From contig JAIXTT010000032.1 of assembly GCA_027483795.1 (NCBI GenBank), positions 1 through 57,522 on the forward strand: a DNA stretch of 57,522 nt, written 5' to 3'. Positions 1 through 20,223 of this stretch are shown here, piece after piece; the stretch's first letter is position 1, and each line of letters begins with the position of its first letter. Position numbers and translations under genes: made by a program. Under the pieces are notes generated by a model, which saw nothing but the letters and a program-made list of their open reading frames with translations, had not been told where the DNA came from and did no database searches. Source of the stretch: Hyphomicrobiales bacterium (lineage in GTDB: Bacteria; Pseudomonadota; Alphaproteobacteria; Rhizobiales; Beijerinckiaceae).

Positions 1-2226
<2,226 letters not shown>

Positions 2227-2354: not shown

Positions 2355-2687
2355 ATGATTTCCATCGTCGACATCTGCGGGATGTGCGGTCTCGATCGCG
2401 ACCAGATCGACGCCATCGCCGAGCATGAGCATGTGCCGGAGGTCGCCGCGGCGGCGCTCGGCCATTATCTCATCGAACACATGCATCACGGACCGGAAAA
2501 GATCCGCGACATGATCGTGGACGATCTCTGCTCCGCGCTTCGTCGCGACGACCGTCATCACGCCGCCGAACTGCTGATGGCGCTGCGGCATTTCTACCAT
2601 GCGCATCCCGAGGTCCGGCACATGCCGGCGCGGACGCGGGACACGCCCGAGGTCGGAGATCCCGAGGCGGGTTCCGACCTGCCCTGA
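2355..2687 (+). CDS. conserved hypothetical protein, 110 aa, His-rich
   Basis: The start is the ATG preceded by a clear GGGAGG ribosome site. The 110-residue product is acidic and histidine-rich, with EHEHVPEVAAAALGHYL near residue 23 and AAELLMALRHF near residue 69, and is probably all-helical. I recall similar short proteins of unknown function in alphaproteobacteria, with the same 'AEHEHVPE' and 'MALRHF' signatures, but I do not know a function. It lies 128 bases after metH on the same strand and could be read through from it. No signal peptide or membrane segment is visible. The Cys, His and acidic residues might bind metal; that is speculation. Confidence 0.8.
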   Translation: MISIVDICGMCGLDRDQIDAIAEHEHVPEVAAAALGHYLIEHMHHGPEKIRDMIVDDLCSALRRDDRHHAAELLMALRHFYHAHPEVRHMPARTRDTPEVGDPEAGSDLP

Positions 2688-2721
2688 ACCGCTCGCGGAG
2701 ATCCGCGTCGCCTCGTTCGTC

Positions 2722-2760
2722 GCGACGGCGGGGAGACGGGGCCGTGCGCCCCGCCGCCGC
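2722..2760. terminator. strong GC hairpin between convergent genes
   Basis: Bases 2722-2733 and 2749-2760 form a 12-pair stem with one mismatch around a 15-base loop, exactly between the stops of the 110-aa gene and ettA. It has no U-tract, so a bidirectional terminator is an inference from position and stem strength. Confidence 0.4.
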
Positions 2761-4416
2761 TCAGCGCGTGAACTGCTTGTACTTGATCCGCTTCGGAATC
2801 AGGCTGTCCGTGCCGAGGCGACGCTTCTTGTCTTCCTCATAGTCCTGGAAGTTGCCTTCGAACCATTCGACATGGCTGTCGCCCTCGAAGGCGAGCATGT
2901 GGGTGGCGATGCGGTCGAGGAAGAAGCGGTCATGCGAGATGATGACCGCGCAGCCCGCGAAATCCTCGAGCGCCTCTTCGAGCGCCCGCAACGTGTCGAC
3001 GTCGAGATCGTTGGTCGGCTCGTCGAGCAGCAGGACGTTCGCGCCCGACTTCAGCATCTTGGCGAGGTGAACACGGTCGCGCTCGCCGCCCGAAAGCATG
3101 CCGACCTTCTTCTGCTGGTCGCCGCCCTTGAAGTTGAAGGCGCCGCAATAGGCCCGCGAATTGATCTCGCGCTTGCCGAGATAGATCACCTCGTTGCCGT
3201 CCGAGATCTCCTCCCAGACGGTCTTCTTCGGGTCGAGCGCGTCGCGCGACTGGTCGACATAGCCGAGCTTGACGCTGTCGCCGATCGTGATCGAGCCGCC
3301 GTCGGGCTTCTCCGTGCCGGTGATCATGCGGAACAGCGTGGTCTTGCCCGCGCCGTTCGGCCCGATCACGCCGACGATGCCGCCCGGCGGCAGCTTGAAG
3401 GACAGGCCGTCGATCAGCAGGCGGTCGCCGAAGGCCTTGTTGAGGCCGTTGAACTCGATGACGTTCTGGCCGAGGCGCTCCGCGACCGGGATGACGATCT
3501 GGGCGGTCGTCGGCGCCTTGTCGGCCTGCTTGGCGACGAGATCCTCGTAGCGCTGGATGCGGGCCTTGGACTTGGTCTGCCGCGCCTTGGGCGACGCCTG
3601 AATCCACTCGCTTTCGCGCTCGAGAGCGCGCATGCGGGCCTCTTCCTCGCGGCCTTCCTGCTGCAGGCGCTTCTGCTTCTGCGTCAACCAGGAGGAATAG
3701 TTGCCCTCGTAGGGAATGCCGCGGCCGCGGTCGAGTTCGAGAATCCAGCCCGTCACGTTGTCGAGGAAGTAGCGGTCGTGGGTGACGATCAGGATCGCGC
3801 CGGGATAGGTGCGCAGATGCCCTTCGAGCCAGTTCACCGTCTCGGCGTCGAGATGGTTGGTCGGTTCGTCGAGGAGCAGCAATTCGGGCTGTTCGAGCAG
3901 CAGCCGGCAGAGCGCGACGCGGCGGCGCTCGCCGCCCGAAAGCTTGGAGACGTCGGCGTCGTCGGCGGGGCAGCGCAGCGCGTCCATGGCCTGATCGACC
4001 TTGGAGTCGAGATCCCAGAGACCCTTGGCCTCGATCTCGTCCTGCAGGCGGGTCATCTCGTCCGCCGTCTCGTCCGAATAATTCATGGCGAGTTCGTTGT
4101 AGCGGTCGAGGATCGCCTTCTGCGCGGCGACGCCGTCCATCACGTTCTCGCGGACGCTCTTGCCCTCGTCGAGATGCGGCTCCTGCGGCAGATAGCCGAC
4201 GCGCGCGCCTTCCTGCACCCAGCCGTCGCCGACGAACTCCTTGTCGATGCCGGCCATGATGCGGAGCAGCGTCGACTTGCCCGAGCCGTTGACGCCGAGA
4301 ACGCCGATCTTGGCGTCCGGGTAGAAGGAGAGATGCACGTTGTCGAGCACCTTCTTGCCGCCCGGATAGGTCTTGGTCAGACCCTGCATGTGATAGACGA
4401 ACTGGTAGGAAGCCAT
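2761..4416 (-). CDS. ettA: energy-dependent translational throttle protein EttA (ABC-F)
   Basis: Soluble ABC-F ATPase that binds the ribosomal E site and gates translation according to ATP/ADP level. At 551 residues it has the EttA length. Two ABC cassettes are complete: Walker [10 protein letters not shown] and GPNGAGKTT, signatures LSGGERRR and LSGGERDR, and Walker [12 protein letters not shown] and [12 protein letters not shown] charged linker lies between them and there are no membrane segments. The start has a GAGGTCC ribosome site 7 bases upstream. The gene is monocistronic and convergent with the gene on its left. Family assignment is secure; EttA rather than Uup or YheS is favoured by length and by the absence of a C-terminal coiled coil. 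Confidence 0.95.
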
Positions 4417-4754: not shown

Positions 4755-4830
4755 GGGGGCGTAGCTCAATGGTCAGAGCCGACCGCTCATAACGGTCTGG
4801 TTGCAGGTTCGAGTCCTGCCGCCCCCACCA
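4755..4830 (+). tRNA. tRNA with CAU anticodon (Met or lysidine-type Ile)
   Basis: A complete cloverleaf of 76 bases: acceptor stem GGGGGCG/CGCCCCC, D arm GCTC...GAGC, anticodon stem GACCG/CGGTC with loop CTCATAA, T arm GCAGG-TTCGAGT-CCTGC, and an encoded CCA end. The anticodon is at 4788-4790. The initiator type is unlikely because position 1 pairs normally with G-C. Elongator Met and TilS-modified Ile2 cannot be told apart with certainty from sequence alone. Confidence 0.95.
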
Positions 4831-4839
4831 TTCGTCGCC

Positions 4840-5778
4840 TCAGCGCGGCAGGCCGAATTCCCGTAGAGCGTTCTCGTAGGCGACCTTGCGGATCACCGCG
4901 GGCGGCAGCGCCGGCAGGAGATGCTCGCGGATTTCCGAGACGAGCGCGTCGTAACGTTCCTCAAGACCGCAGCACGGGTCGGTCCCCAGCATGAAGCGGT
5001 CGGCATGGGCGACGATCACTTCGCGCCAGCCGGGCTTGATGCCGTTGCGGTCATAGACGCGCTCGACGCCGTGCGAGGGGCCCTGCGCCGACAATTCGCA
5101 GAAGACGTTCTTGGTGCGCGAAAAGAGTTCCGCCAGTTCGGCGGGCCCGGCGCCCGGCAGGCAATGCGACAGGATCAGCCGCGTGCGCCGGAACCGCTCC
5201 GCGACGCGCAGGATCTCCTCGAGGCCGCTGTTGCGCGAGGTATGGATCTGGACGAAGCCGCCGTGTTTGTCGGCGATGCGGAACATCTCCATCACCACCG
5301 GGCTTTCGAGCGGGATCTTCCGTTGAATGCCGGCCGGCGAGAAACGACTGACATTGTTGATGTGGATCTCGCCGAAACCGCGCACGGTCCCGGCGCGGAA
5401 CTCGCGTTCCGCCCGTTCGAACAGCGCCTTGAACTGCGGCCTGTCCGGATCGCTCAGCGCGGCGGCCCCGCCCATGAAGAAGACGGCGAAGAACTCCGTC
5501 TGGCCGATCGCGGGAAGGTAGCGCGGCCCCAAGGCGGCGCGCATGGCGACCGGGTCGTCCTTCGGCCCGCCGCCGACGCCGCCGCCCCAGCGGACGTTGT
5601 TGCGCTCCATCTGCGCCCGGTAATGCTCAGGACCGTATCCCTTGCCGAGATGCATGTGCATGTCGGCGATGGGAACGGTCCGCGCGAGTTCGGCGGAACT
5701 CTGCGCGCGAACGGGAAGCATGCCCCCCGATGCAAGGATGAGGAGAACGGAGGCGAGAAGACCGAAGACGCGACGCAT
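4840..5778 (-). CDS. secreted amidohydrolase-family TIM-barrel hydrolase
   Basis: 312 residues starting with a typical Sec signal peptide (MRR, a hydrophobic core, then an AQS cleavage site near residue 26), so the enzyme probably acts in the periplasm. Metal-ligand motifs of the amidohydrolase-2 family follow in order: ADMHMHLGKG near residue 38, GEIHINN, VQIHTSRN, LSHCLPGAG and MLGTDPCC. These suggest a metal-dependent hydrolase of a C-N, C-O or C-C bond; the substrate is unknown. The gene follows the tRNA tail to tail and is divergent from the M20 hydrolase gene across 119 bases, so a functional link with the catabolic island is possible but unproven. No strong ribosome site precedes the start. 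Confidence 0.85.
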   Translation of the reverse strand: MRRVFGLLASVLLILASGGMLPVRAQSSAELARTVPIADMHMHLGKGYGPEHYRAQMERNNVRWGGGVGGGPKDDPVAMRAALGPRYLPAIGQTEFFAVFFMGGAAALSDPDRPQFKALFERAEREFRAGTVRGFGEIHINNVSRFSPAGIQRKIPLESPVVMEMFRIADKHGGFVQIHTSRNSGLEEILRVAERFRRTRLILSHCLPGAGPAELAELFSRTKNVFCELSAQGPSHGVERVYDRNGIKPGWREVIVAHADRFMLGTDPCCGLEERYDALVSEIREHLLPALPPAVIRKVAYENALREFGLPR

Positions 5779-5897: not shown

Positions 5898-7289
5898 ATG
5901 TCCCGCAATTCGGCCGTCGCCCATGCCCATGCCGCCTTCGACGGCGGCGCGTTCCGGGAGGTGCTGGCGCGCCGCCTCTCGATCCCGACGGAAAGTCAGA
6001 ATCCGGAGCGCGCGGCGGATCTCGCCCGCTATCTCTCCGACGAGATGATCCCGGAATTCGCTTCGCTCGGCTTCGCCTGCACGGTGCTGACGCATCCGAA
6101 GGGCAAGGGACCGTTCCTCTTCGCGGAGCGCATCGAGGATCCCGCCCTGCCGACGGTGCTGGGCTACGGCCACGGCGACGTGATCCGCGGCATGGACGAG
6201 GCGTGGAAGTCGGGAACGGGGCCGTGGACGCTGACGGAGGTCGGCGACCGCTGGTACGGGCGCGGCGTCGTCGACAACAAGGGCCAGCATTCCATCAACC
6301 TCGCCGCGCTGCGGGCGGTGCTGGAGACGCGGGGCCGCCTCGGCTTCAACGCCAAATATCTGATCGAGACGGGCGAGGAGGTCGGCTCGCCGGGCTTGAA
6401 GGAACTCTGCGCGGAGCATCGCGAGCGCTTCCGCGCCGACATGCTGATCGCCTCGGACGGACCGCGCCTCTCGGCGGAACGGCCGACCGTGTTTCTCGGC
6501 GCGCGGGGCGGCATCTCGCTGGACCTCGCGATCGAGGCGCGCGAGGGCGGGCATCATTCGGGCAATTGGGGCGGGCTCATCTCGAACCCCGCGATCCGGC
6601 TCGCCCATGCGATCGCTTCCATCGTCGGGCCGACGGGGCAGATCCGGCTGCCGGAACTCGTGCCCTCGGAGATCCCCGCAGCGGTGCGCGCGGCGCTGAA
6701 GGATCTCGAAGTCGACGGCGGCGAGGACGGGCCGGCCGTCGAACCGTGGTGGGGCGAGCCCGGGCTGACGCCTGCCGAGCGGGTGTTCGGCTGGTGCAAT
6801 TTCGAGGTTCTCGCCTTCGAGGCGGGGAACCCGCAGGCGCCCGTCAACGCGATCCCGCCGAGGGCCCGGGCGCGATGCCAGCTGCGCTTCGTCGTGGGCG
6901 TCGATCCCGAAGGGGTGGTTCCGGCGCTCCGCCGGCATCTCGCGCGGCAGGGGCTTTCGGACGTGAAGGTCGAGAAGGCGCGCGACGAGGTCTTCGCGGC
7001 GACGCGGCTCGACCCGGACCATCCCTATGTCGGCTTCACGCTGGCCTCGATCGAGAGGACGACGGGGAAGACGCCGGCGCTGCTTCCCAATCTCGGCGGC
7101 GCGCTGCCGAACGACATCTTCGCTGAGATCCTCGGCCTGCCGACGATCTGGGTGCCGCATTCCTATCCGGGCTGCTCGCAGCACGCGCCGAACGAGCATG
7201 TGCCGAAGGCGCTGGTGCGCGAAGCGCTGGGGCTGATGGCCGGGCTTTATTGGGACATCGGCGAGGCCGGGGCGCGGCTGAAGGGCTGA
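5898..7289 (+). CDS. M20 family metallohydrolase (ArgE/DapE-like)
   Basis: A cytoplasmic dizinc amidase or peptidase of 463 residues, normal for the family. Ligand motifs: GYGHGDV (His92, Asp94), GRGVVDNKGQ (Asp126, the bridging ligand), ETGEEVGS (Glu160 catalytic base, Glu161 ligand), IASDGPR, and the distal His in CSQHAPNEH near the C-terminus. An inserted dimerisation domain lies between about residues 190 and 340. The start has GGAG 7 bases upstream. It is the first gene of a catabolic-looking block and converges on the ABC permease. The family typically deacylates N-acyl amino acids or opens N-carbamoyl compounds; the true substrate cannot be read from the sequence. Confidence 0.9.
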   Translation: MSRNSAVAHAHAAFDGGAFREVLARRLSIPTESQNPERAADLARYLSDEMIPEFASLGFACTVLTHPKGKGPFLFAERIEDPALPTVLGYGHGDVIRGMDEAWKSGTGPWTLTEVGDRWYGRGVVDNKGQHSINLAALRAVLETRGRLGFNAKYLIETGEEVGSPGLKELCAEHRERFRADMLIASDGPRLSAERPTVFLGARGGISLDLAIEAREGGHHSGNWGGLISNPAIRLAHAIASIVGPTGQIRLPELVPSEIPAAVRAALKDLEVDGGEDGPAVEPWWGEPGLTPAERVFGWCNFEVLAFEAGNPQAPVNAIPPRARARCQLRFVVGVDPEGVVPALRRHLARQGLSDVKVEKARDEVFAATRLDPDHPYVGFTLASIERTTGKTPALLPNLGGALPNDIFAEILGLPTIWVPHSYPGCSQHAPNEHVPKALVREALGLMAGLYWDIGEAGARLKG

Positions 7290-7306
7290 GGGCGCTGCGG
7301 CCCCGC

Positions 7307-7384
7307 CGTCATGCCCGCGCATGCGGGCATCCGCGTCTTTCCGCCCCGAAGACGTGAATGGCCGGGACGAGCCCGGCCATGACG
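7307..7384. repeat. palindromic intergenic repeat, type CGTCATG
   Basis: An imperfect inverted repeat whose arms begin CGTCATGCCCGC and end GCCCGGCCATGACG, with inner CGTCTT/AAGACG arms. It fills most of the 138-base gap between two convergent genes. Dispersed elements of this form are common between genes in Hyphomicrobiales genomes; they may act as terminators or mRNA stabilisers. Confidence 0.6.
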
Positions 7385-7427
7385 ATGAAGAACGGCGATC
7401 TCGATCGAGAGGAAGCCGCAGCGCCCC

Positions 7428-8312
7428 TCAATTCTCCCGGCGGATGGCGCTTTCGTGCCAGCGGCGCAGGAAGAGATGCGCGATCCAGCTCGTGACGAGG
7501 AAGATCGCGATGCCCGACAAGGAGATCAGGATCAGCGCGGCGAACATGCGCGGGATCCGCAGCTGATATCCCGACTCGAGAATGCGGTAGGCCAGGCCAG
7601 ACGCATTGCCGCCCGAACCCGCGACGAATTCCGCCACCACCGCGCCGATCAGCGCGAGGCCGCCGGAGATTTTCAGGCCCGCGAGGAAATAGGGAAGCGC
7701 GGCCGGAAGGCGCAGATGGCGCAAGGTCTGCCAACGCGAGGCGCGATAGAGCTGGAACAGGTTGATGAGATTGTGGTCGGCCGAATTGAGGCCGAGGATC
7801 GTGTTCGACAGGATCGGGAAGAAGGCCACGAGCCAGGCGCAGATGAGCAGCGAGAGATTGATGTCGCCGACCCAGATGATGATCAACGGCGCGATGGAGA
7901 CGACGGGCGTCACCTGCAGGATCACCGCATAGGGGAACAGCGATTTTTCCAGCCATTTCGACTGGGTGAAGAGGATCGCGAGCGCCACGCCCACCGTCAC
8001 CGCCGCGACCAGAGCGGCGAAGGTGATCCGCAGCGTGATCCACAGCGCGCCCGACAGCGTGTCCCAATCGGTGACCAGCGTCTTGGCGATCAGCAGCGGC
8101 CCCGGCAGGATGTAGGACGGGACCCGCTTCCACTCGACGATCAGTTCCCACGCGGCGAGCGCGAACAGGCCGATCGTCAAGGGCGCGATGATTCCGGGCC
8201 AGGCCGAGACCGGCAGGCCGAGGACGCGACGTTCCTCGACGAAGACGGGACGGGCTTCGGCATCCGTGCCGTCGTGAGGGACGGAGGGGCCGGCGAGGGG
8301 CATGTCGGTCAT
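7428..8312 (-). CDS. ABC transporter permease, taurine/pyrimidine-precursor (SsuC/ThiX) type
   Basis: 294 residues with an N-terminal cytoplasmic tail and about six membrane helices. The EAA-like coupling stretch lies near RASRWQTLRHLRLPAALP, as in BPD_transp_1 permeases of nitrate, sulfonate, taurine and pyrimidine importers. The ATG at 8312 overlaps the TGA of the ATPase gene (ATGA), which settles the start. It is the last gene of a three-gene import operon (binding protein, ATPase, permease). It would form the homodimeric inner-membrane channel. The ligand is predicted only at the level of small organic nitrogen or sulfur compounds. Confidence 0.92.
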   Translation of the reverse strand: MTDMPLAGPSVPHDGTDAEARPVFVEERRVLGLPVSAWPGIIAPLTIGLFALAAWELIVEWKRVPSYILPGPLLIAKTLVTDWDTLSGALWITLRITFAALVAAVTVGVALAILFTQSKWLEKSLFPYAVILQVTPVVSIAPLIIIWVGDINLSLLICAWLVAFFPILSNTILGLNSADHNLINLFQLYRASRWQTLRHLRLPAALPYFLAGLKISGGLALIGAVVAEFVAGSGGNASGLAYRILESGYQLRIPRMFAALILISLSGIAIFLVTSWIAHLFLRRWHESAIRREN

Positions 8313-9115
8313 CCCGCGATGGCCTTCTTCAGGGTTTCGGACGCGACGCGGCAAAGATGCGCGTATTCGGCCGACGTACGGAACAGATCGTCGCGCGGAT
8401 AGGCCGCGTCGACGCGGAGATCGGCCATCACGCGACCCGGCCGGGCGGCCATGACCACGATGCGCTGGCTGAGATAGACGGACTCGAACACCGAATGGGT
8501 GACGAAGACGGCGGTGAAGCGGTTGCGCTCCCACAGCCCCAGAAGATCGTCGTTGAGCTTGTGCCGGGTGATCTCGTCGAGCGCGGCGAAGGGCTCGTCC
8601 ATCAGCAGGATCTTGGGCTTGGTCACCAGAGCCCGCGCGATGGAGACGCGCATCTTCATGCCGCCGGACAATTCGCGCGGATAGGAGGCCTCGAAGCCCT
8701 TGAGGCCCACGAGGGCGAGCATTTCGGCCGCGCGCGCCTCCGCATCCGGCTTGCTCACGCCCGCGAGCGTCATGGGGAGCATGACGTTCTTGAGCGCGGT
8801 GGCCCAAGGCATCAGCGTCGGATCCTGAAAGACGAAGCCGAGATCGGGCTCGGCCAGACCGCGCGAGTCGTGCGGCGCGGTCGGCCATTCGATGGTCCCG
8901 ACGCTCGGCGCGCCGAGACCCGCGATCATGCGCAGAAGCGTGGACTTGCCGCAGCCCGCCGGCCCCAGAAGGCTCACGAACTCCCCGTCCGCGAGGTCGA
9001 GATCGACCCCGCGCACCGCGAGCGTGCCGTTGGAGAACTGTTTCGAGACGCCCCTGACGGAGACGAGGGGTCGCCCCTTCGTCTCCCGGATCGCCGCAGC
9101 CGCGGAAGATGTCAC
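8309..9115 (-). CDS. ABC transporter ATP-binding protein (SsuB/TauB type)
   Basis: 268 residues forming one ATPase cassette: Walker A GPAGCGKST, Q-loop VFQDPTLMPW, signature LSGGMKMR, Walker B ILLMDEPFAALDE and the switch His in VFVTHSVFE. The signature has GGM where most families have GGQ, a known SsuB/TauB-type variant. Translation probably starts at GTG 9115, which overlaps the binding-protein stop (GTGA). It lies between the binding protein and the permease of the same importer, and energises uptake across the inner membrane. Confidence 0.93.
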   Translation of the reverse strand: MTSSAAAAIRETKGRPLVSVRGVSKQFSNGTLAVRGVDLDLADGEFVSLLGPAGCGKSTLLRMIAGLGAPSVGTIEWPTAPHDSRGLAEPDLGFVFQDPTLMPWATALKNVMLPMTLAGVSKPDAEARAAEMLALVGLKGFEASYPRELSGGMKMRVSIARALVTKPKILLMDEPFAALDEITRHKLNDDLLGLWERNRFTAVFVTHSVFESVYLSQRIVVMAARPGRVMADLRVDAAYPRDDLFRTSAEYAHLCRVASETLKKAIAG

Positions 9116-10140
9116 GCGCCGACGCCCTTGTTGATGAAGTCGAGGCTGTAGGCCTTGGTCACGTCGAGCCCCTTCGGGAAGGCGCCCGCATCGGCCATCG
9201 TATCGTAGAAACGCTTCCAGCGCTCGGCCGTCATCGCGCCGATGCCGAGCTTGAGCGCATCGCCGGACCGGACGATGCCGCGCTCGTTCATGACCTTGAT
9301 CGCATAAGCGATCTTGTCGTCGGTCATGTCCGGGTTGTCCTTCTTGATCAGGGCGTTGGCCGCCTCGATCGCCGAACCGCCCTTCATGTATTCCGCCCAG
9401 CCTTCCAGCGTCGCGGTCATGAAGCGCTGCACCACGTCCTTCTTCTCCTCGACCATCTTGCGGGAGATGTTGACGGTGGTGTTGTAGTTGTCGAAGCCCG
9501 CGTCGGCGATCAGATGCACGACGGGCTGCACGCCCGCCTGCATGATCGCGTAGGGCTCGGAGGACAGGAAGCCCTGCTGCGAGATGTTCTTGTCCGCGAG
9601 GAAGGGCGCCATGTTGAAGGTGTAGGGCCGCGCCTGCTCGTCGGTGAAGCCGAACCTGGCCTTCAGGAAGGGCCAATAGCTCGTCCGGCCCGCGGCGCCG
9701 ATCAGGATCGGCTTGCCCTTGAGGTCGGCGAGCTTGTCGTTGCCGACGCCCGGGTGCGAGATGATGACCTGCGGATCCTTCTGGAAGATCGAGCCGATGC
9801 AGAGGAAGGGCAGACCTTCGCGCACGTAATTGATGGCCTCGAACGAGTTCGACATGATCATGTCGACCCGGCCGCCGAGCAGAAGCTGCGAGGGATTCTG
9901 CTGCGGGCCGCCCATGCGGATGTCCGCATCGATGCCGTACTTCTTGTAGATGCCGTTGGCGACGGCGAGATAGAAGCCGCCGTGTTCGGCCTGCGCGCGC
10001 CAGTTTGTCTGGTAGCTCACCTTGTCGAGCGTCTGCGCGTTGACGCGCCCGCCCGGAACGGTGACGAGCGTGGAAGCCAAGGTGCCGCCGAGAAGCCCGA
10101 GGGCGGCGCGCCGGTCGATGCGGTATTTCGTGGTGGTCAT
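9112..10140 (-). CDS. ABC importer substrate-binding protein, NMT1/THI5-like
   Basis: 342 residues. The N-terminus has a twin-arginine-like leader (RIDRRAALGLLGG, ending near VNA), so it is probably exported to the periplasm, perhaps by Tat. The mature part begins with VSYQTNWRAQAEHGGFYLA, which is typical of NMT1/THI5-like proteins that bind pyrimidine precursors (formylaminopyrimidine, hydroxymethylpyrimidine), riboflavin-like or other small heterocycles. The ATG at 10140 has AAGGG about 8 bases upstream. It is the first gene of the import operon and is transcribed divergently from FAD oxidase 1 across a 252-base region. Ligand prediction is by family only. Confidence 0.9.
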   Translation of the reverse strand: MTTTKYRIDRRAALGLLGGTLASTLVTVPGGRVNAQTLDKVSYQTNWRAQAEHGGFYLAVANGIYKKYGIDADIRMGGPQQNPSQLLLGGRVDMIMSNSFEAINYVREGLPFLCIGSIFQKDPQVIISHPGVGNDKLADLKGKPILIGAAGRTSYWPFLKARFGFTDEQARPYTFNMAPFLADKNISQQGFLSSEPYAIMQAGVQPVVHLIADAGFDNYNTTVNISRKMVEEKKDVVQRFMTATLEGWAEYMKGGSAIEAANALIKKDNPDMTDDKIAYAIKVMNERGIVRSGDALKLGIGAMTAERWKRFYDTMADAGAFPKGLDVTKAYSLDFINKGVGA

Positions 10141-10279
10141 CGGAGAACCCTTCCCGATCGTGTCGGTGAGTGAAGCTGGCCTGAAGACGAAGCAACGAGC
10201 GTGCCGCATCGAAACACATGGAGCGGTCCGCCCCGGCGGTCAAAGGGGTGCATCGAATTCAGGCAGACCGGCGGTTTCT

Positions 10280-10287
10280 TGTGCACA
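10280..10287. promoter_or_regulatory. candidate operator TGTGCACA in the divergent promoter region
   Basis: The 252-base gap 10141-10392 separates two divergent operons, so it must hold both promoters. A perfect 8-base palindrome TGTGCACA sits near its centre, inside TCTTGTGCACAGTT, which resembles GntR-family operators. No regulator gene lies in the cluster. Confidence 0.3.
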
Positions 10288-10392
10288 GTTTTCCCGCAAA
10301 GGAGGCATGCGGCGGTGTGCATCGTCTTTGCCGCGCGGTACGCTAATTGCTCTCCACGGCAGACACGCCCGTATCGCGCAGCCGAGACCGCC

Positions 10393-11769
10393 ATGAACGC
10401 TCCCGTCCTTTCCCGTACCGATGCTCCCCGTTACGACGTCGCCGCTCTCCTCGCCGCGCTCGGAGACGTCCCGTCGATCACGGAGCCGCAGGTCGTCCGC
10501 AAGCGCTCGCGTGACTTCTTCTGGTACAGCCCGATCCTGAACGTCGAGCTCAACGGCAAATCGGCCGACGTCATCGTCGCGCCGCGCGACGAGGCGGATC
10601 TGATCAAAGTCGCGGCGGCCTGCGCGAAGCTGCGGATCCCGCTGACGCCGCGCGGCGGCGCGACGGGCAATTACGGTCAGGCCGTGCCGCTCGAAGGCGG
10701 CGTGCTGCTCGACATGACGGCTTTCTCCGCGATCGAGTGGCAAAAGACCGGCGTCGTCCGCGTCGGCGCGGGCGCGAAGATCCATGAGCTCGACGCCGAG
10801 CTCCGCCCGACGGGCTGGGAGATGCGCATGCATCCCTCGACCAAGCGCACCGCCACCATCGGCGGCTTCGTGGCGGGCGGCTCGGGCGGCGTGGGCTCGG
10901 TGGCCTATGGCGGCCTGCGCGAGCCCGGCAACATCATCGCGGCCCGGATCGTGACGGTCGAGGAGACGCCGCGGGTCATCGAACTGCGCGGCGACGCGGC
11001 GCAGAAGATCAACCGCGCCTACGGCACGACCGGGATCATCACGGCGCTCGAAATGCCGCTCGCGCCCGCTTGGCCGTGGGTCGACCTGATCGTCGCCTTC
11101 GACGACTTCTTCGGCGCGGTGGAGTTCGGCCGCGAGGTCGCGATGGCCGACGGCGTGGTGAAGAAGCTCGTCAGCCCGATCACCTGGCCGATCCCGTCCT
11201 ATTTCGGCCAGCTGACGAAGCATTGCCCGGAGGGCAAGAGCATCGTGATCATGATGATCGCGGAGCCGTGGGTGGAGACCGTGAAGTCGATGCTGGGCGA
11301 GAAGGGCGCGGTGACCTACGAGGCGCCGTCCGACGAGAGCCCCGGACAGGTTCCGCTCTACGAATACACGTGGAACCACACGACCCTTCAATGGCTCAAG
11401 GCCGATCGTTCGATCACCTATCTGCAGTGCCTCTACCCGCATGACCGACTGATCGAAAGCGTGCGCGAGATGCACGACATGTTCCCGGACGAAGTGCTGC
11501 CGCATCTCGAATTCATCCGCTTCGGCGGGCGGATGACGTGTTCGGCACTGCCGATCGTGCGCTACACCACGCCCGAGCGCCTCAACGAGATCATCGCGCT
11601 GCACGAGAAGCACGGCGTGATGATCGCCAATCCTCACGTCGTCACGCTGGAGGACGGCAGCCGCCACAAGCGCGCCGATGCCGACCAGCTCGGCTTCAAG
11701 GGCGAGGTGGATCCGCACGGCCTGCTCAATCCGGGCAAGATGCGGACCTACGTCCCCCTGAAGCCCTGA
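10393..11769 (+). CDS. FAD-linked oxidase 1 (GlcD/VAO-type)
   Basis: 458 residues of the vanillyl-alcohol-oxidase/GlcD flavoprotein family. The PP-loop FAD-binding domain is clear: PLTPRGGATGNYGQAVPLEGG at about residue 85 (quoted in part), then HPSTKRTATIGGFVAGGSGG and YGTTGIITALEMPL. The C-terminal substrate domain ends in the family-typical DPHGLLNPGKM. No signal peptide is present, so it is cytoplasmic. By eye it is a paralogue of the 474-aa oxidase at 13333-14757, with long shared motifs. It heads a two-gene block with the creatininase homologue, opposite the import operon. Substrates in this family are alpha-hydroxy acids, lactones or amines; this one is not identifiable. Confidence 0.88.
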   Translation: MNAPVLSRTDAPRYDVAALLAALGDVPSITEPQVVRKRSRDFFWYSPILNVELNGKSADVIVAPRDEADLIKVAAACAKLRIPLTPRGGATGNYGQAVPLEGGVLLDMTAFSAIEWQKTGVVRVGAGAKIHELDAELRPTGWEMRMHPSTKRTATIGGFVAGGSGGVGSVAYGGLREPGNIIAARIVTVEETPRVIELRGDAAQKINRAYGTTGIITALEMPLAPAWPWVDLIVAFDDFFGAVEFGREVAMADGVVKKLVSPITWPIPSYFGQLTKHCPEGKSIVIMMIAEPWVETVKSMLGEKGAVTYEAPSDESPGQVPLYEYTWNHTTLQWLKADRSITYLQCLYPHDRLIESVREMHDMFPDEVLPHLEFIRFGGRMTCSALPIVRYTTPERLNEIIALHEKHGVMIANPHVVTLEDGSRHKRADADQLGFKGEVDPHGLLNPGKMRTYVPLKP

Positions 11770-11819
11770 GCGTCCTCGCCGCGATCCCCCCTCGACCCGT
11801 CTTGCCGGAGGATGATGCC

Positions 11820-12608
11820 TTGCGCCGCCGTTTCTGGAGCGAACTGACCACCAAGGATTTCGAGGGTCTCGACCCGGAGACCACGATCGCGATCCTGCCC
11901 GTCGCGGCGATCGAGCAGCACGGCCCGCATCTCCCCGTCTCGGTCGACACGGTGATCGCCGACGGCATGATCGCCGAGGTGCTGAAGCGCCTGCCGGACG
12001 ATCTCGACGTGCTGGTGCTGCCGACGCAGGCGGTCGGCAAGTCGAACGAGCATCTGCGCTCGCCGGGCACGGTGACGATGACGTGGGAGACCGCGATCCG
12101 CGTCTGGACCGAGATCGGCGAGAGCGTGCACCGCGCGGGCCTGCGCAAGATCGTGATGGTCAACAGCCACGGCGGGAACGTCGATCCGCTCAACATCGTC
12201 GCGCGGGAACTGCGCGTGCGGCTCGGCATGCTGGCCGTGACATGCGCCTGGCGGCGCTTCGGCATCCCGGCGGGGATGTACACCGATCTCGAAGGTCAGA
12301 TCGGCATCCATGCGGGCGACATCGAGACCTCGCTGATGCTGCATTTCCGGCCCGATCTCGTGCGGATGGACAAGGCGGAGAATTTCGCGCCGACCTCGAT
12401 CGAGATCGCGAAGAGCTTCGACCTGTTGCGTCCCACGGGCTTCACCGCCTTCGGCTGGCTGGCGCAGGATCTCCACCCCTCGGGCGCGGCCGGCGACGCG
12501 TCCCTCGCGACGGCCGAGAAGGGCCGACTGACGGCGGAGATGCAGGCGCTGGAATTCATCAAGCTCGTGCGGGACGTGACGCGGTTCGAGCTGTCGCGGC
12601 TGGCTTGA
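11820..12608 (+). CDS. creatininase-family amidohydrolase
   Basis: 262 residues. The family metal site is visible: AIEQHGPHLPVSVDT (Glu, His and Asp ligands near residues 36-47), VMVNSHGGNVDP (His) and IHAGDIETS (Glu). Relatives include creatininase, 3-dehydro-scyllo-inosose hydrolase, MftE and FAPy deformylase (ArfB), which open cyclic amides or remove formyl groups using zinc or manganese. The start is taken as TTG at 11820 because GGAGG lies about 8 bases upstream and no in-frame ATG or GTG fits. It follows FAD oxidase 1 by 50 bases in the same operon. In the context of an importer and a deaminase homologue, lactam or ring hydrolysis is the likeliest chemistry. Confidence 0.88.
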   Translation: MRRRFWSELTTKDFEGLDPETTIAILPVAAIEQHGPHLPVSVDTVIADGMIAEVLKRLPDDLDVLVLPTQAVGKSNEHLRSPGTVTMTWETAIRVWTEIGESVHRAGLRKIVMVNSHGGNVDPLNIVARELRVRLGMLAVTCAWRRFGIPAGMYTDLEGQIGIHAGDIETSLMLHFRPDLVRMDKAENFAPTSIEIAKSFDLLRPTGFTAFGWLAQDLHPSGAAGDASLATAEKGRLTAEMQALEFIKLVRDVTRFELSRLA

Positions 12609-12622
12609 GGAGGAGTTCCTCC

Positions 12623-12720
12623 GTCATTGCGAGGAGCGGAGCGACGCGGCAATCCATGCCGGGCACGGAGCATGAAGGCCCGGCGTCCGCTGGATTGCTT
12701 CGCCTTCGCTCGCAATGACG
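12623..12720. repeat. palindromic intergenic repeat, type GTCATTGCGAG
   Basis: A 98-base inverted repeat with outer arms GTCATTGCGAG/CTCGCAATGAC and inner arms around GCAATCCA/TGGATTGC. It occupies the gap between the convergent creatininase and quinone-reductase-like genes. Elements of this design are scattered in many alphaproteobacterial genomes. It is distinct from the repeat at 7307-7384. Confidence 0.65.
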
Positions 12721-12727
12721 AAGGAGA

Positions 12728-13318
12728 CTAGCGCAGCCGCGCCGTCCGCTCCCGCACGCGCTCCAGAAACGCCTTGCGTTCCGGCTCCGTCGTCGAATCC
12801 ATCTTGTGGAGCGCGAGCCAGAGGGTCTTCGCGCCCGGGGCGCAGAGGACGGAGATGCCCGTCAGAAGCACGCGGCGGCCGGGCATGCCCATCAGGAACC
12901 ACCACCATTTCGGACTGCCCAGCGTCGTGATCGCGCCGATCAGGCGGATGTTCGTCAGCACGCGCCCGATCGGCTTGTCGCCCTCCGGCATCGTGAAGGT
13001 CGCATGCGGAATCCAGACACGGTCGAGCCAGCCCTTGAGCATCGCCGGCTGGCCGTACCACCAGGTCGGATAGGTGAAGAGCAAGCCCTCGCACCAACGC
13101 AGGGCCGCGAGGTGATCCTCCACGCCGGCCTCATTCTCGCCCGCCGTGTGATAGGCGGCCCGGCCCTCGCGGCTGAGGACGGGATCGAAATTCTCGGCGT
13201 AGAGATCGATCACGCGCGCCTCGTGGCCCGCCGCGGCGAGGCCCTCGAGCGCGGCGTCGCGGACGGCGGCCGTGAAGCTCGCCGGGTTCGGGTGGCAATG
13301 GACGAGGAGGATCCGCAA
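12728..13318 (-). CDS. NAD(P)H:quinone oxidoreductase-like flavoprotein
   Basis: 196 residues with the flavodoxin-like fold of the NQO1/MdaB/KefF family. Seen: an N-terminal beta strand and phosphate loop ILLVHCHPNPASFTAA, and the flavin-binding block TYPTWWYGQPAMLKGWLDRVW near residue 80 (quoted in part). The family reduces quinones or other electrophiles by two electrons using NAD(P)H and FMN or FAD. The start is taken as TTG at 13318, because a GGGGAGGGGG ribosome site lies just upstream and homology begins there. It is the last gene of a three-gene minus-strand block behind FAD oxidase 2 (14 bases apart). It might recycle a reduced or quinoid intermediate of the pathway; that is inference. 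Confidence 0.82.
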   Translation of the reverse strand: MRILLVHCHPNPASFTAAVRDAALEGLAAAGHEARVIDLYAENFDPVLSREGRAAYHTAGENEAGVEDHLAALRWCEGLLFTYPTWWYGQPAMLKGWLDRVWIPHATFTMPEGDKPIGRVLTNIRLIGAITTLGSPKWWWFLMGMPGRRVLLTGISVLCAPGAKTLWLALHKMDSTTEPERKAFLERVRERTARLR

Positions 13319-13332
13319 AGCCCCCTCCCCGG

Positions 13333-14757
13333 TCAGGCGTCGGCGAGCCGGGCTTCCAGGCCGGGGAAGAGATAGCGCTTGCCGGCCTTGTAGTCGTAGG
13401 TCGGGTCTTCCCAAGCGATCATCTTGCCGGGATTGAGCAGGCCCTTGGGGTCGGCCTCGCGCTTGAAGGCGAGCTGGACCTCGTCGGTCTGCTTCATGCC
13501 GCCCTCCTCCAGCGTGTAGCGATGCGGATCGAAGATCGGCGCGCCCATGTCCTCATGGATGCGCATGATCTCTTCGAGCCGCTCGTCGGTGGTGTAGCGC
13601 ACCAGAGGCAGCCCGAAGCAGGTCACCTTGCCGTCGAAGCGCACGAATTCGAGATGGGCGGGCACTTCGTCGCCGAAATGCGCATGGACCTTGTCCACGA
13701 GGTCGATCTGGTTCGGATAGGGATAGAGCACCTGCAGATAGGTCAGCGTCGGGTCGACGCGGATCGCACGCAGGGTCGTATGGTTCCAGCCCAGTTCGAA
13801 GCCCGGCGGCAGCCCCTTCTTCTCCTCGTCGGACAAGAGGTCGGTCCGCATCAGGATCTCGCCCGTGCGGAAGCGCCGGGTGAAGGCGAGCATGGCGTCG
13901 AGCGCCTGCTCCGCCACCGTCACGATGGCGACGTGGCTCTCGGGCTTCAGATACTTCTTGTGCCGGGCGAAATAGGTGTGCGGGACGGGCGCGGCGATCA
14001 CCGCGAGGTTCTTGAGCAGAATGCCGTCCTGCTCGCCCAGCGCATTGGCATAGGCGGTCGCGTCGCGCAGCGTGGGGAAGCCCACGATGACGTCGTGCCA
14101 GGTATAGGCGGGCGCGAGCGGCATCTCGACTTCGGTGATGATGCCGTTGGTGCCGTAGGCATGCGCCGCCTTCTGCATGTCGTCGCCCGAGAGTTCGAGC
14201 ACGCGCGGGCTCGCCTCCATGGTCACGACGCGCAGACGGATCAGATTGCCGTAATCGCGCAGCCCGCCCCATTTGATCGAGCCGACGCCGGCCGATCCGC
14301 CGGCCACGAAGCCGCCGATGGAGGCCGTATGGTAGGTCGAGGGGTGGATGCGCAGCTCCTGCCCGGAATCCGCGCGCGTCACCTTGTCGACCTCGGCGAG
14401 CACGGTGCCCGCCTGCGCCGTCACGCGGCCGGGCGCGATCTTCGTGACGCCGTTCAGCCCGGAGAGATCCAGCACGACGCCGCCCGAAAGCGGCATGGCC
14501 TGCCCGTAATTCCCCGTGCCCGTTCCGCGCGGCGTCACCGGAATGCCGAGATCGAAACAGGCGGCGAGCGTCTCGACGACCTCCGCTTCCGACGCGGGGG
14601 AGACGACCATGTCGCCCGTCACGTGGTCGAGCTGCTTCTTCAGGATCGGCGAGTACCAGTAGAAGTCGCGGCTCTTCTGCTTGACCAGAGCGGGATTGGT
14701 CTCGGTCCGGATGGAACCGAGGCGGCGCTTCAAGGCGTCGAGATCATAAGCGGGCAT
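13333..14757 (-). CDS. FAD-linked oxidase 2 (GlcD/VAO-type), paralogue of oxidase 1
   Basis: 474 residues of the PP-loop FAD oxidase family. Motifs: SRDFYWYSPILKKQL near residue 29, PVTPRGTGTGNYGQAMPLSG (FAD pyrophosphate loop), HPSTYHTASIGGFVAGGSAG, AYGTNGIITEVEMPL and the C-terminal DPKGLLNPGKM. The same motifs in the same order appear in the oxidase at 10393-11769, so the two are paralogues that may act on successive or related substrates, or as a heteromer. It is cytoplasmic. It lies 14 bases after the amidohydrolase gene and 14 bases before the flavoprotein gene in one operon. The substrate is unknown. Confidence 0.88.
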   Translation of the reverse strand: MPAYDLDALKRRLGSIRTETNPALVKQKSRDFYWYSPILKKQLDHVTGDMVVSPASEAEVVETLAACFDLGIPVTPRGTGTGNYGQAMPLSGGVVLDLSGLNGVTKIAPGRVTAQAGTVLAEVDKVTRADSGQELRIHPSTYHTASIGGFVAGGSAGVGSIKWGGLRDYGNLIRLRVVTMEASPRVLELSGDDMQKAAHAYGTNGIITEVEMPLAPAYTWHDVIVGFPTLRDATAYANALGEQDGILLKNLAVIAAPVPHTYFARHKKYLKPESHVAIVTVAEQALDAMLAFTRRFRTGEILMRTDLLSDEEKKGLPPGFELGWNHTTLRAIRVDPTLTYLQVLYPYPNQIDLVDKVHAHFGDEVPAHLEFVRFDGKVTCFGLPLVRYTTDERLEEIMRIHEDMGAPIFDPHRYTLEEGGMKQTDEVQLAFKREADPKGLLNPGKMIAWEDPTYDYKAGKRYLFPGLEARLADA

Positions 14758-14771
14758 CGGTCGGGCTCCGG

Positions 14772-16091
14772 TCAGGCGTGGAGAGGGTCGAGTTCGCGAT
14801 AGTCCGGCGGCGTCGTGGAGACGCCCGCGCCGCCGACGACGACCACGCGGTCGAATTGCGGGCGCGAGACGAATTCGCCGAGCGTGCGGGCGGAGACGAG
14901 CACGAGATCCGCCGGGCCGCCCGTCTTGATGCGCCCGTGATCGGCAAGGCCCATGACGTCGGCGGCGGTCGTGCCGAGCGCCCTCGTCCACGGCCGGTCG
15001 GAATGATCGAAATGGAGAATGCGCGTCGCCTCGCGGAAGACTTCGACCATGTCGAGATCGCCATAGGCGTAGAAGGGGTCGCGGGTATTGTCGCTCGCGA
15101 CCATGACGCGGACGCCCGCGGCGTCGAGTTCATGCAACGGCGCGACGCCGCGCCAGCGCGGGGTGCGGCCCGCCTTCCGGTCCTGCAGATACATGTTGCA
15201 CATCGGCAGACTGACGACGGAGATCCCCGCCGTGCCGAGCTTGTCGATCACGCGGGCGCGGTCGCCGTCGGAGGCGAGCGCGAGCGAGCAGCAATGGCCG
15301 GTCGTGATCGCGCCCTTGAAGCGATGGCGGATCGCGGCGTCGGCGATCACTTCGAGCGAACGGGCGTCCGCGGAATCGCTCTCGTCGACATGGAAATCGA
15401 GATCGAGGCCGTGCGCGGCCGCCGCCCCGAAGAGGCGTTCGAGCGCGAGATCGAGCTTTTCGTCCGGCGCGCGACCGAGAAAGGTGACCGCGCCGAGAAT
15501 GCCGCCGTTGCGGGCGACGGTGTCGACCACCGTGCGGAACTCGTCCTCCGCGTCGACCACGAGATCGGACGGGAGGAGAGAGACCGCCTGAAGGGCCATG
15601 CGGCCCTTCCACGCCTCGCGCAGTTCGGCGAAGACGGGCCAGCTGATCGCCGTCTGCTTGCCGATGGAATCGATATGCGTGCGGATCGCGCCCGTGCCGT
15701 GGGCGAAGGCGCAGCGGATCGCGAAATCCATGCGGGCGCGGACGTCGTCCGCCGTCCAATTCGCCTCGCGGTCGGCGCCGACGGCCTCGCGCGCGCCGAA
15801 GAAGCCGCCGTCCGGGTTCGGCGAGCGGGCGACGATATGGCCCTTGTCGAGATGGGTATGCATGTCGACGAAGCGCGGCAGGACCATGCCGCCGCGCAGA
15901 TCGACGGCGGGAAGCGCCGGGTCGGACGAGCCCGCCGGACCGATCGCGGCGATGCGGCCGCGGTCGATCGTGATCTCGACGGCGACGGGCGCATCGCCCT
16001 CCCCCTCGCGGCCGAGAAGCGGCGCGGGGACGCGGGCTCCGATCAGGCGATAGGCAGGTGCCTGGGGAACGGTCACGAAGCCGGCGCTCAT
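14772..16091 (-). CDS. cytosine-deaminase-like amidohydrolase
   Basis: 439 residues with the cytosine deaminase/atrazine hydrolase fold: an N- and C-terminal beta sandwich around a metal TIM barrel. Ligand motifs in order: VDMHTHLDKGHI, LDFHVDESDSAD, TTGHCCSLA and VMVASDNTRDPF, the full set used by cytosine deaminase and related isoguanine, creatinine or hydroxy-triazine deaminases. It is the first gene of a minus-strand operon followed by FAD oxidase 2 and the flavoprotein. A 160-base divergent region separates it from the Rid-family gene, suggesting shared control. It probably deaminates or hydrolyses a cyclic amidine or amide; the exact ring is not deducible. Confidence 0.9.
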   Translation of the reverse strand: MSAGFVTVPQAPAYRLIGARVPAPLLGREGEGDAPVAVEITIDRGRIAAIGPAGSSDPALPAVDLRGGMVLPRFVDMHTHLDKGHIVARSPNPDGGFFGAREAVGADREANWTADDVRARMDFAIRCAFAHGTGAIRTHIDSIGKQTAISWPVFAELREAWKGRMALQAVSLLPSDLVVDAEDEFRTVVDTVARNGGILGAVTFLGRAPDEKLDLALERLFGAAAAHGLDLDFHVDESDSADARSLEVIADAAIRHRFKGAITTGHCCSLALASDGDRARVIDKLGTAGISVVSLPMCNMYLQDRKAGRTPRWRGVAPLHELDAAGVRVMVASDNTRDPFYAYGDLDMVEVFREATRILHFDHSDRPWTRALGTTAADVMGLADHGRIKTGGPADLVLVSARTLGEFVSRPQFDRVVVVGGAGVSTTPPDYRELDPLHA

Positions 16092-16251
16092 CGGGCGACG
16101 CCCCGAGCGGTGATCGCGGGGCGGCAACGGTCGTGTCTCGGCATCGTTCACTCCGGCGGGACGCTTGCCGGGAGAGTCGCCCGGCTTATGCTCCATTGGT
16201 AAGCAAAAGCCGTGCTAGCGTCACCACGTCACGAGAGAGTCGGAGCCCGCC

Positions 16252-16641
16252 ATGAACACCCCTCTTCGCCCCACGACGATCCGTCCGCCCTTTTCGACCT
16301 ATGTCCACGGCGTCGCGGTGCCGGCAGGATCGCGTTTCGTCTTCGCGTCCGGGCAGCTGGGCGTGGGTCCGGACGACGTGATCCCCGAGGACATCGAGAG
16401 CCAGACGATCCTCTGCCTCGAAAACGTCCAGGCGGTTCTCGCCGAAGCGGGCATGACGCTGAACGACGTGGTGCGCTTCAACGCCTTCGTGACCGACCGT
16501 TCCTATTTCCCGATCTACGGGAAGATCCGCGACCGCTATCTGAACGGCGGCCCGGTGGCCTCGACGCTGGTGATCGTGTCGGGCTTCTCGAAGCCCGAAT
16601 TCAAGATCGAGGTCGAGGTGACGGCGGCGAAGCTCGACTGA
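16252..16641 (+). CDS. Rid-family (YjgF/YER057c/UK114) protein lacking the RidA arginine
   Basis: 129 residues with the Rid trimer fold: FASGQLGVGPDD, ENVQAVLAEAGMTLNDVV and KIEVEVTAAKL. Known RidA enzymes hydrolyse reactive 2-imino acids using an arginine in the PARSC motif. Here the aligned stretch reads PVAST, so that arginine appears to be replaced by alanine, while the downstream KIEVEV strand with its glutamate is kept. It therefore probably belongs to one of the non-RidA (Rid4-Rid7-like) subgroups that accompany catabolic operons. The start has GGAG about 7 bases upstream. It is divergent from the deaminase-like gene. Its role is unknown, perhaps as a hydrolase in the same pathway. Confidence 0.88.
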   Translation: MNTPLRPTTIRPPFSTYVHGVAVPAGSRFVFASGQLGVGPDDVIPEDIESQTILCLENVQAVLAEAGMTLNDVVRFNAFVTDRSYFPIYGKIRDRYLNGGPVASTLVIVSGFSKPEFKIEVEVTAAKLD

Positions 16642-16681
16642 GCCTCACGGCTCCCGGCTCGACTGAGCCTCACGGCTCCCG
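16632..16681. repeat. perfect 2 x 25-base tandem duplication across convergent stop codons
   Basis: Bases 16632-16656 and 16657-16681 are identical 25-base copies starting GCTCGACTGAGCCTCACGG. The first copy holds the stop of the Rid-family gene and the second holds the stop of the adaptor gene, so each gene ends inside one copy. This is a local slippage-type duplication. Confidence 0.85.
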
Positions 16682-18046
16682 CAGGCTTTCGTCGAGCCCG
16701 CGCAGGATCGGGTAGAGGAAATAGGACAGCACCGTCCTTCGCCCGGTCTTGATCTCGCCCGCCACGGTCATGCCGGGAAGAATGCTCACGCTGTCGGGCA
16801 CGCCCTTCAGCCTCACGGAATCGAGCGCGATGCGGACGCGATAGAAGGGCTGCGGGCCCTGCGGCCCGGCCTTCTTCCGCGTCTCGTCGGGCGTGAAGCT
16901 GTCGCGGCTGATGGTGCGGACGGTGCCGCTCGCGGTACCGTGCTTCTGGAAGGGAAAGGCATCGAATTTGACGCGGACGGGCTGGCCCGGCGCGATGCGC
17001 CCGATGTCCCTCGCGTCGACCGCCACCTCCGCCTCGATCGGTACGTCGAGGGGGACGAGGGTGACGAGCGGTTCCGCCTCGCGCATGACGGAGCCGAGCG
17101 AGCGCTGGGCGATGTCGAGCACGACGCCGTCCGACGGCGCGGTGAGCGTGACGAGGTTGCGGCGCAGTTCCGCCTTGCGGAGCTCTTCGAGCGCGGTCTT
17201 GCGTTGGTCGCGGGCCTCGACGAGATGTTCGAGCGTCGTCCGACGCGCGTCTTCGACATAGGCGCGGCGTTCCGCCTTCGCCTTTTCGAGCCCGTGCTGC
17301 ATCTCGGTGCGGCTGCCCTGCGCGCGGACGATGGAGGCCTCGATGTCGAGCCGGAGATCGCGCGACTGGAGCAGGTTCAGCCGCGATCCGCTCTGCCGGT
17401 CGACGAGCATGGTCCGCATGTCCTCGATCTCGGTCAGGGTCGCCAGCCGCTTGCGATTGACCTCCTCCTCGTTGACGCTCGCGGAAATGCCCGCCTCGGC
17501 CCGCGCGATCTGCTGGTCGTAATCGAGCAATCGCGCCTCGTGCGAGGCGCGACGTTGGTCGAAGAGGCGGCGCTGAAGCCGGATTTCGCTCCCCGCATCC
17601 GCCGCCACCTCCATGTCCCCCGCGCCCGCCTCCGCTTCGAGCCGGGCGAGCAGCGCGTCGAAATGGGCGAGCTTGGCGCGCAACTGCTCGAAGTCGGCGT
17701 CGGAGAAGGTGGTGTCGAGCGTGATCAGCGCCTGCCCGGCCTTCACCGTGTCGCCCAGCGCCACATGGATGCCGCGGATGACCGCGCGTTCGAGAGGCTG
17801 GACCACGAGATTGGGCCGGGTGGTGACGAGTTTGCCGGGTGCGACGGCGATCTCGTCGACCTTGGAGACCGCCGCCCAGACGACGGCCGAAGCGAGGACG
17901 CCCGCCGCGAGCCAGAGCACCGCCCCCGCCGCGGGCGGCGGCGCGCGGTCTTCGACCACCGCCGCAGCCGATTGAAACTCCGCCGCCGCTTCGATGCGGG
18001 ACGGTTCGCGCTGCGGTTCGGGACGAGCGGTCGGACGGGTCGTCAT
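16670..18046 (-). CDS. HlyD-family type I secretion adaptor
   Basis: 458 residues. A cytoplasmic N-terminal tail of about 55 residues is followed by one membrane helix (AVLWLAAGVLASAVVWAAVS), a lipoyl-like half motif (VQPLERAVIRGIHVALGDTV), a long alpha-helical hairpin (about residues 140-310), the second half motif (LTAPSDGVVLDIAQRSLG) and the family C-terminus LPGMTVAGEIKTGRRTVLSYF. It would bridge the inner-membrane exporter and an outer-membrane TolC-type channel; no TolC gene is in the window. The ATG has GGGAG just upstream. It is the last gene of the secretion operon, 26 bases after the exporter, and is intact, unlike the adaptor remnant at 54149. Confidence 0.94.
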   Translation of the reverse strand: MTTRPTARPEPQREPSRIEAAAEFQSAAAVVEDRAPPPAAGAVLWLAAGVLASAVVWAAVSKVDEIAVAPGKLVTTRPNLVVQPLERAVIRGIHVALGDTVKAGQALITLDTTFSDADFEQLRAKLAHFDALLARLEAEAGAGDMEVAADAGSEIRLQRRLFDQRRASHEARLLDYDQQIARAEAGISASVNEEEVNRKRLATLTEIEDMRTMLVDRQSGSRLNLLQSRDLRLDIEASIVRAQGSRTEMQHGLEKAKAERRAYVEDARRTTLEHLVEARDQRKTALEELRKAELRRNLVTLTAPSDGVVLDIAQRSLGSVMREAEPLVTLVPLDVPIEAEVAVDARDIGRIAPGQPVRVKFDAFPFQKHGTASGTVRTISRDSFTPDETRKKAGPQGPQPFYRVRIALDSVRLKGVPDSVSILPGMTVAGEIKTGRRTVLSYFLYPILRGLDESLREP

Positions 18047-18072
18047 CGAAACTCCCGGGTTGCGGTCGCCCG

Positions 18073-20208: not shown

Positions 20209-20223
20209 GACGAAATCCCGCCC

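Follow-up and report, generated by a model that had tools for sequence, protein, structure and literature searches.

The window analysed here is a stretch of 57,522 nucleotides (positions 1-57,522 of contig JAIXTT010000032.1) from a Hyphomicrobiales bacterium (GCA_027483795.1, an assembly of 2.85 Mb in 120 contigs), and our subject is the gene island at 7428-16641, which encodes an NMT1/THI5-family ABC importer, an amidohydrolase annotated as a cytosine deaminase, two paralogous FAD enzymes (FAD1 and FAD2), a flavin or quinone reductase, a creatininase-family hydrolase and a Rid-family protein. This island appears to be a real, conserved catabolic unit, and our results support a model, which we regard as probable, whereby it takes up folate or a related pterin and breaks it down. 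The class of substrate is suggested by the title of the Protein Data Bank (PDB) entry 6v42, by a pterin deaminase of Variovorax (PMC9513972) with an apparent orthologue in the same kind of cluster, and by the fold of the binding protein. An earlier note on this DNA had proposed a catabolic island for a cyclic nitrogen compound to which it gave no name; the island is supported by partner genes that recur in other genomes and are found in 0/24 control stretches, and the 6v42 title together with the Variovorax enzyme now allow folate or other pterins to be proposed as the compound. All genes named in that note as packed into 5898-16641 were recovered from open reading frames (ORFs) and from Pfam and NCBIfam scans:

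5898-7289, plus strand: M20 hydrolase PRK07079, outside the conserved set (726.2 bits, cut-off 330)
7428-8312, minus strand: ABC importer permease, BPD_transp_1 (PF00528, E 9.1e-29), kept beside the ATPase and binding protein
8309-9115, minus strand: ABC importer ATPase, SaoA/taurine/nitrate-like (best NCBIfam match 215.9 bits, under the cut-off of 360; GTG start by inspection)
9112-10140, minus strand: periplasmic binding protein, NMT1/THI5 family (PF09084, E 1.8e-23)
10393-11769, plus strand: FAD1, FAD_binding_4 flavin enzyme and FAD2 paralogue, 47% identical to 6v42, in a clade of its own
about 11770-12608, plus strand: creatininase-family metal hydrolase (PF02633, E 4e-73), left end approximate and start unsettled
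12728 to about 13336, minus strand: Flavodoxin_2/NQO-like NAD(P)H flavin or quinone reductase (PF02525, E 1.6e-29), start unsettled
13333-14757, minus strand: FAD2, FAD_binding_4 enzyme and 6v42 orthologue (65% identity, shared clade)
14772-16091, minus strand: PRK07583 amidohydrolase, probable pterin (or related) deaminase (NF005759, 598.4 bits, cut-off 403)
16252-16641, plus strand: Rid-family protein, probable imine/enamine deaminase (PF01042, E 2.8e-20)

Conservation of the gene set

The importer genes follow one another as binding protein, ATPase and permease, the end of each overlapping the start of the next, and the amidohydrolase, FAD2 and Flavodoxin_2 reductase genes form one run on the minus strand, with a gap of 14 bases between deaminase and FAD2. 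To survey this arrangement, genome contigs were searched with FAD2, the best 80 named loci were kept with at most 10 kb of flank each, and four partners (deaminase, creatininase-like hydrolase, Rid protein and binding protein) were scored by a bit threshold fixed for each family; all searches together gave 164 scored loci, 140 around FAD or deaminase homologues and 24 controls. Among these best 80 loci the deaminase is present in 77 and a reductase in 78, the binding protein in 55, the Rid protein in 49 and the creatininase-like gene in 46. All four scored partners stand together in 44 of the 80, three in 7, two in 4, one in 22 and none in 3, and 34/60 FAD2 loci of at least 21 kb hold all four. 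At the same thresholds, no partner was found in stretches of 19 kb taken arbitrarily from genomes of these sets (0/20) or around distant FAD paralogues that the window's own genome encodes (0/4). Because the partners recur around FAD2 homologues and are missing from the controls, the grouping goes beyond chance; the earlier note had named a failure to co-occur in related genomes as one finding that would speak against its proposal, and the genes do co-occur.

Phylum-wide, 32/398 genomes have an FAD match at E 1e-70, and 20 neighbourhoods covering 21/38 matched places hold all four partners in 8 cases, three in 6, two in 3 and one in 3. Order-wide, the match rate is 106/297 genomes at E 1e-100; 20 regions, among which second FAD copies are over-represented, hold all four partners in 6, three in 1, two in 6, one in 1 and none in 6. 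These last six count against co-occurrence: three carry FAD enzymes of a third clade (L156, L157 and L159; L, G and F or f numbers are our handles for loci, genomes and families), two have enzymes beside but outside the FAD1 clade (L161 and L165), and one (L160) was not placed in the FAD tree. A search with the deaminase in f86, presumably a Burkholderiales family since its cluster L135 is closest to that of a named Comamonadaceae plasmid, matched 31/250 genomes at E 1e-60; 20 regions centred on the deaminase, which is therefore present by construction, contain all four partners in 11, three in 5 and two in 4, and an FAD enzyme in 17/20.

Of the named relatives found, a Hyphomicrobiales metagenome-assembled genome (L036) is nearest, with an FAD2 that is 94% identical. 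Annotated plasmids of a Comamonadaceae bacterium, Klebsiella, Pantoea, Rahnella, Pseudosulfitobacter, Paroceanicella, Rhizobium and Agrobacterium carry the same kinds of genes together; the reductase in the three Enterobacterales clusters (Klebsiella, Pantoea and Rahnella) is a PDR/VanB family oxidoreductase, and the Pseudosulfitobacter run has no annotated reductase. Deaminase, FAD enzyme, reductase, creatininase-family hydrolase, Rid protein and importer thus recur in Alpha-, Beta- and Gammaproteobacteria. In Bosea-type loci the deaminase, FAD2 and reductase genes stay together; these loci have no importer of the island's kind within reach, and often include a gene that reads by eye as a MarR regulator (F8, 29/87 loci). 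A FolD gene directly precedes the deaminase, FAD2 and reductase genes in L038, L040, L044 and other Bosea-type loci (F29, 11/87 loci); we weighed this adjacency as support and set it aside, as it is confined to Bosea-like genomes and may be chance.

The M20 hydrolase does not belong to this set, for which the earlier note had proposed it as the amidase of a final hydrolysis. Neither it nor the neighbouring Amidohydro_2 gene has a match of at least 100 bits in any of the 164 loci, the nearest relative included, and a final hydrolysis by the M20 enzyme thus has no support. A reading as carboxypeptidase G was likewise rejected: the closest solved structure by sequence is Sso-CP2 (E 5.2e-28), and a carboxypeptidase G2 construct reaches only 8.6e-4.

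FAD2, the deaminase and their characterised relatives

FAD2 is 65% identical to PDB 6v42, an entry titled 'Crystal structure of the flavin oxygenase with cofactor bound involved in folate catabolism'. Both fall in one 27-row clade with support 100/100, in a tree that carries a long-branch warning for L172 and L139; within it, 6v42 groups with a Mesorhizobium gene and a Rhizobiaceae gene (L115 and L071), the loci of which hold the whole set. The FAD2 model, of middling quality (mean pLDDT 77), matches 6v42 with Z 42.0 and a root-mean-square deviation of 2.4 over 443 residues, well above the next row at Z 27.4. By identity, clade and fold, then, FAD2 is the 6v42 orthologue, and the role in folate catabolism may be carried over to it from the title of that entry. 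Where the window differs from the 6v42/6v43 flavin oxygenase is in its second paralogue, FAD1, which lies outside this clade.

Variovorax sp. F1 has a pterin deaminase of 399 residues that deaminates folic and pteroic acid, and the report on it gives a 5' primer encoding MKLEAVR and an 'endoribonuclease' gene downstream in V. paradoxus (PMC9513972). In G924, which shares a genus with G636, we found an ORF of exactly 399 residues that starts MKLEAVR and has the F1 5' primer site with 1 mismatch. It is followed by a Rid gene and, on the other strand, by PDR and NQO reductases, binding protein, FAD enzyme, permease, ATPase and creatininase-like hydrolase. Primer site, exact length, N-terminus and gene order together suggest that this ORF is the orthologue of the F1 pterin deaminase (PDA) and that G924 belongs to Variovorax or to a close genus. 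The 5' primer scan matched 30/250 genomes family-wide and 32/61 genus-wide; of three regions from the genus-wide matches, the cluster is complete in L258 and lacks just the NQO-type reductase in L260, and L259 has the deaminase and Rid genes only. In the loci first scanned, no site turned up for any of the three Variovorax primers (5' deaminase, 3' deaminase, Rid) with 3 mismatches allowed. With 4 allowed, L176-L225 still gave no site for the 3' and Rid primers; neither of the two was looked for in L258. The F1 enzyme, which is related to Arad3529, belongs to the same amidohydrolase family as the window deaminase and, through the G924 orthologue, shares with it the metal and catalytic pattern, a Rid-type neighbour and the kind of cluster. 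The two differ in that identity is 37%, as measured to the presumed orthologue rather than to the F1 sequence. The main text of PMC9513972 contains neither the word 'transporter' nor the word 'cluster', and further degradation is left open there.

The window deaminase is also homologous to E. coli CodA (1k6w), from which it differs by having only 24% identity and Asn in place of Asp314. Across an alignment of 52 sequences, from 51 chosen sources and including three relatives from other clusters, the metal and catalytic positions are kept wherever the sequence reaches; in CodA, Asp314 is an active-site residue. At the Asp314 position all 52, window deaminase and PDA orthologue included, have Asn, which is hence not specific to pterin deaminases. 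The window enzyme exceeds the cut-off of the 'cytosine deaminase' model NF005759, a name that is an annotation, and it lacks the Asp that CodA has. We suggest on these comparisons that it is probably a pterin (or related) deaminase.

Relatives of this deaminase in other surroundings (Aminobacter and Rhizobium plasmids) pointed to no consistent substrate. On plasmid p2 of Rhizobium leguminosarum GLR17 (L119, 5288-11293), a 'cytosine deaminase' that shares 47% identity with the window enzyme stands with an ABC importer and an isopenicillin-N-synthase-family oxygenase, possibly a sister pathway. Three Aminobacter plasmids (L118, L120 and L121) have a deaminase relative with RidA, GTP-binding protein, tautomerase, isochorismatase-family and DpsA-like genes, and on two of them transposition genes are near by. 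Adjoining the cluster in Rhizobium sp. T136 (L116, 15466-24026) are a BMP-type transporter, two isochorismatase-family genes and a ring-opening amidohydrolase, presumably of the barbiturase/cyanuric acid hydrolase family, which perhaps make up another N-heterocycle pathway.

In the binding protein, a TNWxAQAEHGG-type segment is conserved. Its AlphaFold model (mean pLDDT 85.9) is closest to the formylaminopyrimidine- and thiamin-binding proteins 3ix1 (Z 28.3) and 4nmy (Z 28.2), followed by Thi5 (Z 23-26), PqqT (22) and binders of sulfonate, taurine, nitrate or bicarbonate (19-22); no pterin- or folate-binding protein is among its 50 structure-match rows, which decides nothing. The hydrolase belongs to the Pfam Creatininase family, as do creatininase and MftE, but has a segment NSHGGN where creatininase has NGHYEN, and the creatinine and MftE readings were both rejected on its scores of 93.8 against a cut-off of 235 (creatininase, TIGR04448) and 121.8 against 172 (MftE, TIGR03964). 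The Rid protein reaches 59.7 of 106.25 on TIGR00004 and 32.4 of 169.1 on the RutC model, and the Rut pyrimidine pathway was rejected.

Proposed pathway and alternatives

In our model, with substrate and order of steps proposed from the enzyme families and from the functions of relatives elsewhere, the NMT1-type importer would take up a pterin, and the PRK07583 amidohydrolase would exchange the 2-amino group of the pterin ring for oxygen, giving a lumazine form and ammonia. FAD2, kept reduced by the NQO-like reductase, would then oxygenate the deaminated ring system, the creatininase-family metal hydrolase would open a cyclic amide of the oxidised product, and the Rid protein would hydrolyse an imine or enamine intermediate and release a second ammonia. 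For this genome, the deaminase and oxygenase functions are transferred by analogy, from the Variovorax study and the 6v42 title respectively; the roles of reductase, creatininase-like enzyme, Rid protein and FAD1, and all that follows deamination, are predicted from family membership. The pathway is known in parts, and the title of 6v42 indicates that others have worked on it; what the window adds is a two-oxygenase variant. We found no paper in the open-licence PMC literature that describes the whole cluster or pathway. On a tentative view, deamination, flavin oxygenation, creatininase-family ring opening and a Rid step may form a widespread route of pteridine-ring breakdown of folate across Alpha-, Beta- and Gammaproteobacteria, with Flavodoxin_2 and PDR/VanB-type reductases interchangeable between clusters and with a second oxygenase, gained in the window lineage, extending the route to another pterin or a second ring position.

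Several observations weigh against a pterin pathway. The role of 6v42 is known from its title, for which no paper was found in the same literature; NCBIfam names the window enzyme a cytosine deaminase above cut-off, and the PDA orthologue, to which it is only 37% identical, scores below (344.2 of 403). At the position of CodA Gln156, Glu stands in 9/51 aligned deaminases (that of Klebsiella included) and Asp in 1, so that the substrate may differ between clades; deaminase relatives 47-50% identical sit in other kinds of clusters. Among the best FAD2 loci, 13 of the 22 with a single scored partner are named Bosea or Boseaceae, and the three with none (L070, L079 and L088) all end early. The conserved set showed neither a carboxypeptidase G nor a p-aminobenzoylglutamate hydrolase. 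Some of these points would suit the same chemistry acting on another amino-heterocycle, imported, deaminated by the amidohydrolase and opened by the flavin and creatininase-like enzymes; free pyrimidines, among them that of thiamin and the products of its breakdown, would be candidates. The annotated name, the other contexts of the relatives and the closest folds of the binding protein, which are formylaminopyrimidine-, thiamin- and hydroxymethylpyrimidine-related, all accord with this alternative. We think it rather unlikely, since FAD2 is orthologous to an enzyme titled folate-catabolic, the Variovorax-type cluster holds the apparent orthologue of a deaminase proven on folic and pteroic acid, and the CodA Asp314 position is uniformly Asn. 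Degradation of riboflavin or lumichrome is much less probable still and was set aside. It too would concern a pyrimidine-fused cofactor, and the lum pathway is a vitamin catabolism with hydrolytic opening of a pyrimidinedione (PMC12746152), but its enzyme set differs: Pfam scans of the island gave none of the lum P450, thiamine-pyrophosphate-enzyme, molybdoprotein and Rieske components (PMC12752717), for which the rest of the genome was not searched, and neither 'folate' nor 'folic' appears in the main text of PMC12746152. A chance gathering of hydrolases and oxidases that have nothing to do with one another, to which only the unconserved M20 and Amidohydro_2 genes at the left edge would lend colour, is scarcely credible given partners that recur in three classes of Pseudomonadota and in none of the controls.

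FAD1 raises a further alternative, one that is compatible with pterin catabolism as far as FAD2 is concerned: two parallel pathways fused in one lineage, the FAD2 module for folate-type pterins and the FAD1 module for a different heterocycle. FAD1 is 47% identical to FAD2 and forms its own 14-row clade (support 96/99), members of which occur in G171, G215 and G274, genomes that each have one FAD match at E 1e-100. There, one FAD1-clade gene lies beside importer and creatininase-like genes (L149) and two beside deaminase, reductase and importer (L162 and L163), so that a FAD1 module can occur without FAD2, although each of these loci is short of some partner. FAD1 and FAD2 stand together, as in the window, in 8 of the 80 best named FAD2 loci, and these share one binding protein and one creatininase-like gene (8/8) and one deaminase (7/8), which suggests a shared substrate class; two reductases are present in 7/8, and one in the window and L036. 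The window variant is thus two paralogous oxygenases with one deaminase, one creatininase-like enzyme and one importer. We regard the two-pathway alternative as a distinct possibility, less likely than not. Under a single pterin pathway, FAD1 would be a second enzyme of the FAD2 kind that arrived with its own module and acts on a second pterin or a second position.

Flanking genes and significance

To the right of the island, 16670-25970 (minus strand) holds what is probably a type I secretion set: an HlyD-type adaptor, an ABC exporter that includes a C39-like domain and, as its likely large secreted substrate, an ORF of 1809 residues in which four DUF4082 stretches are combined with DMFA2_C and cadherin/Big domains. 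To the left, 226-4416 holds an ABC-F-like ATPase and the C-terminal half of methionine synthase of the B12-dependent type, an enzyme that uses folate, and at 4755-5778 a tRNA-Met adjoins the Amidohydro_2 gene, which has a signal-peptide-like start and is not conserved with the island.

The Discussion of PMC9513972 closes with the question of whether bacteria break down pteroic and deaminopteroic acid and, if so, by what route. The gene set described here offers cloneable candidates for these missing steps in many named rhizobial genomes. If our model is correct, the present names cytosine deaminase, creatininase family protein and FAD-binding oxidoreductase would be corrected for a large group of genes, the recycling of folate nitrogen and carbon in soil would become open to direct test, and the island would help to account for the natural breakdown of vitamin B9.

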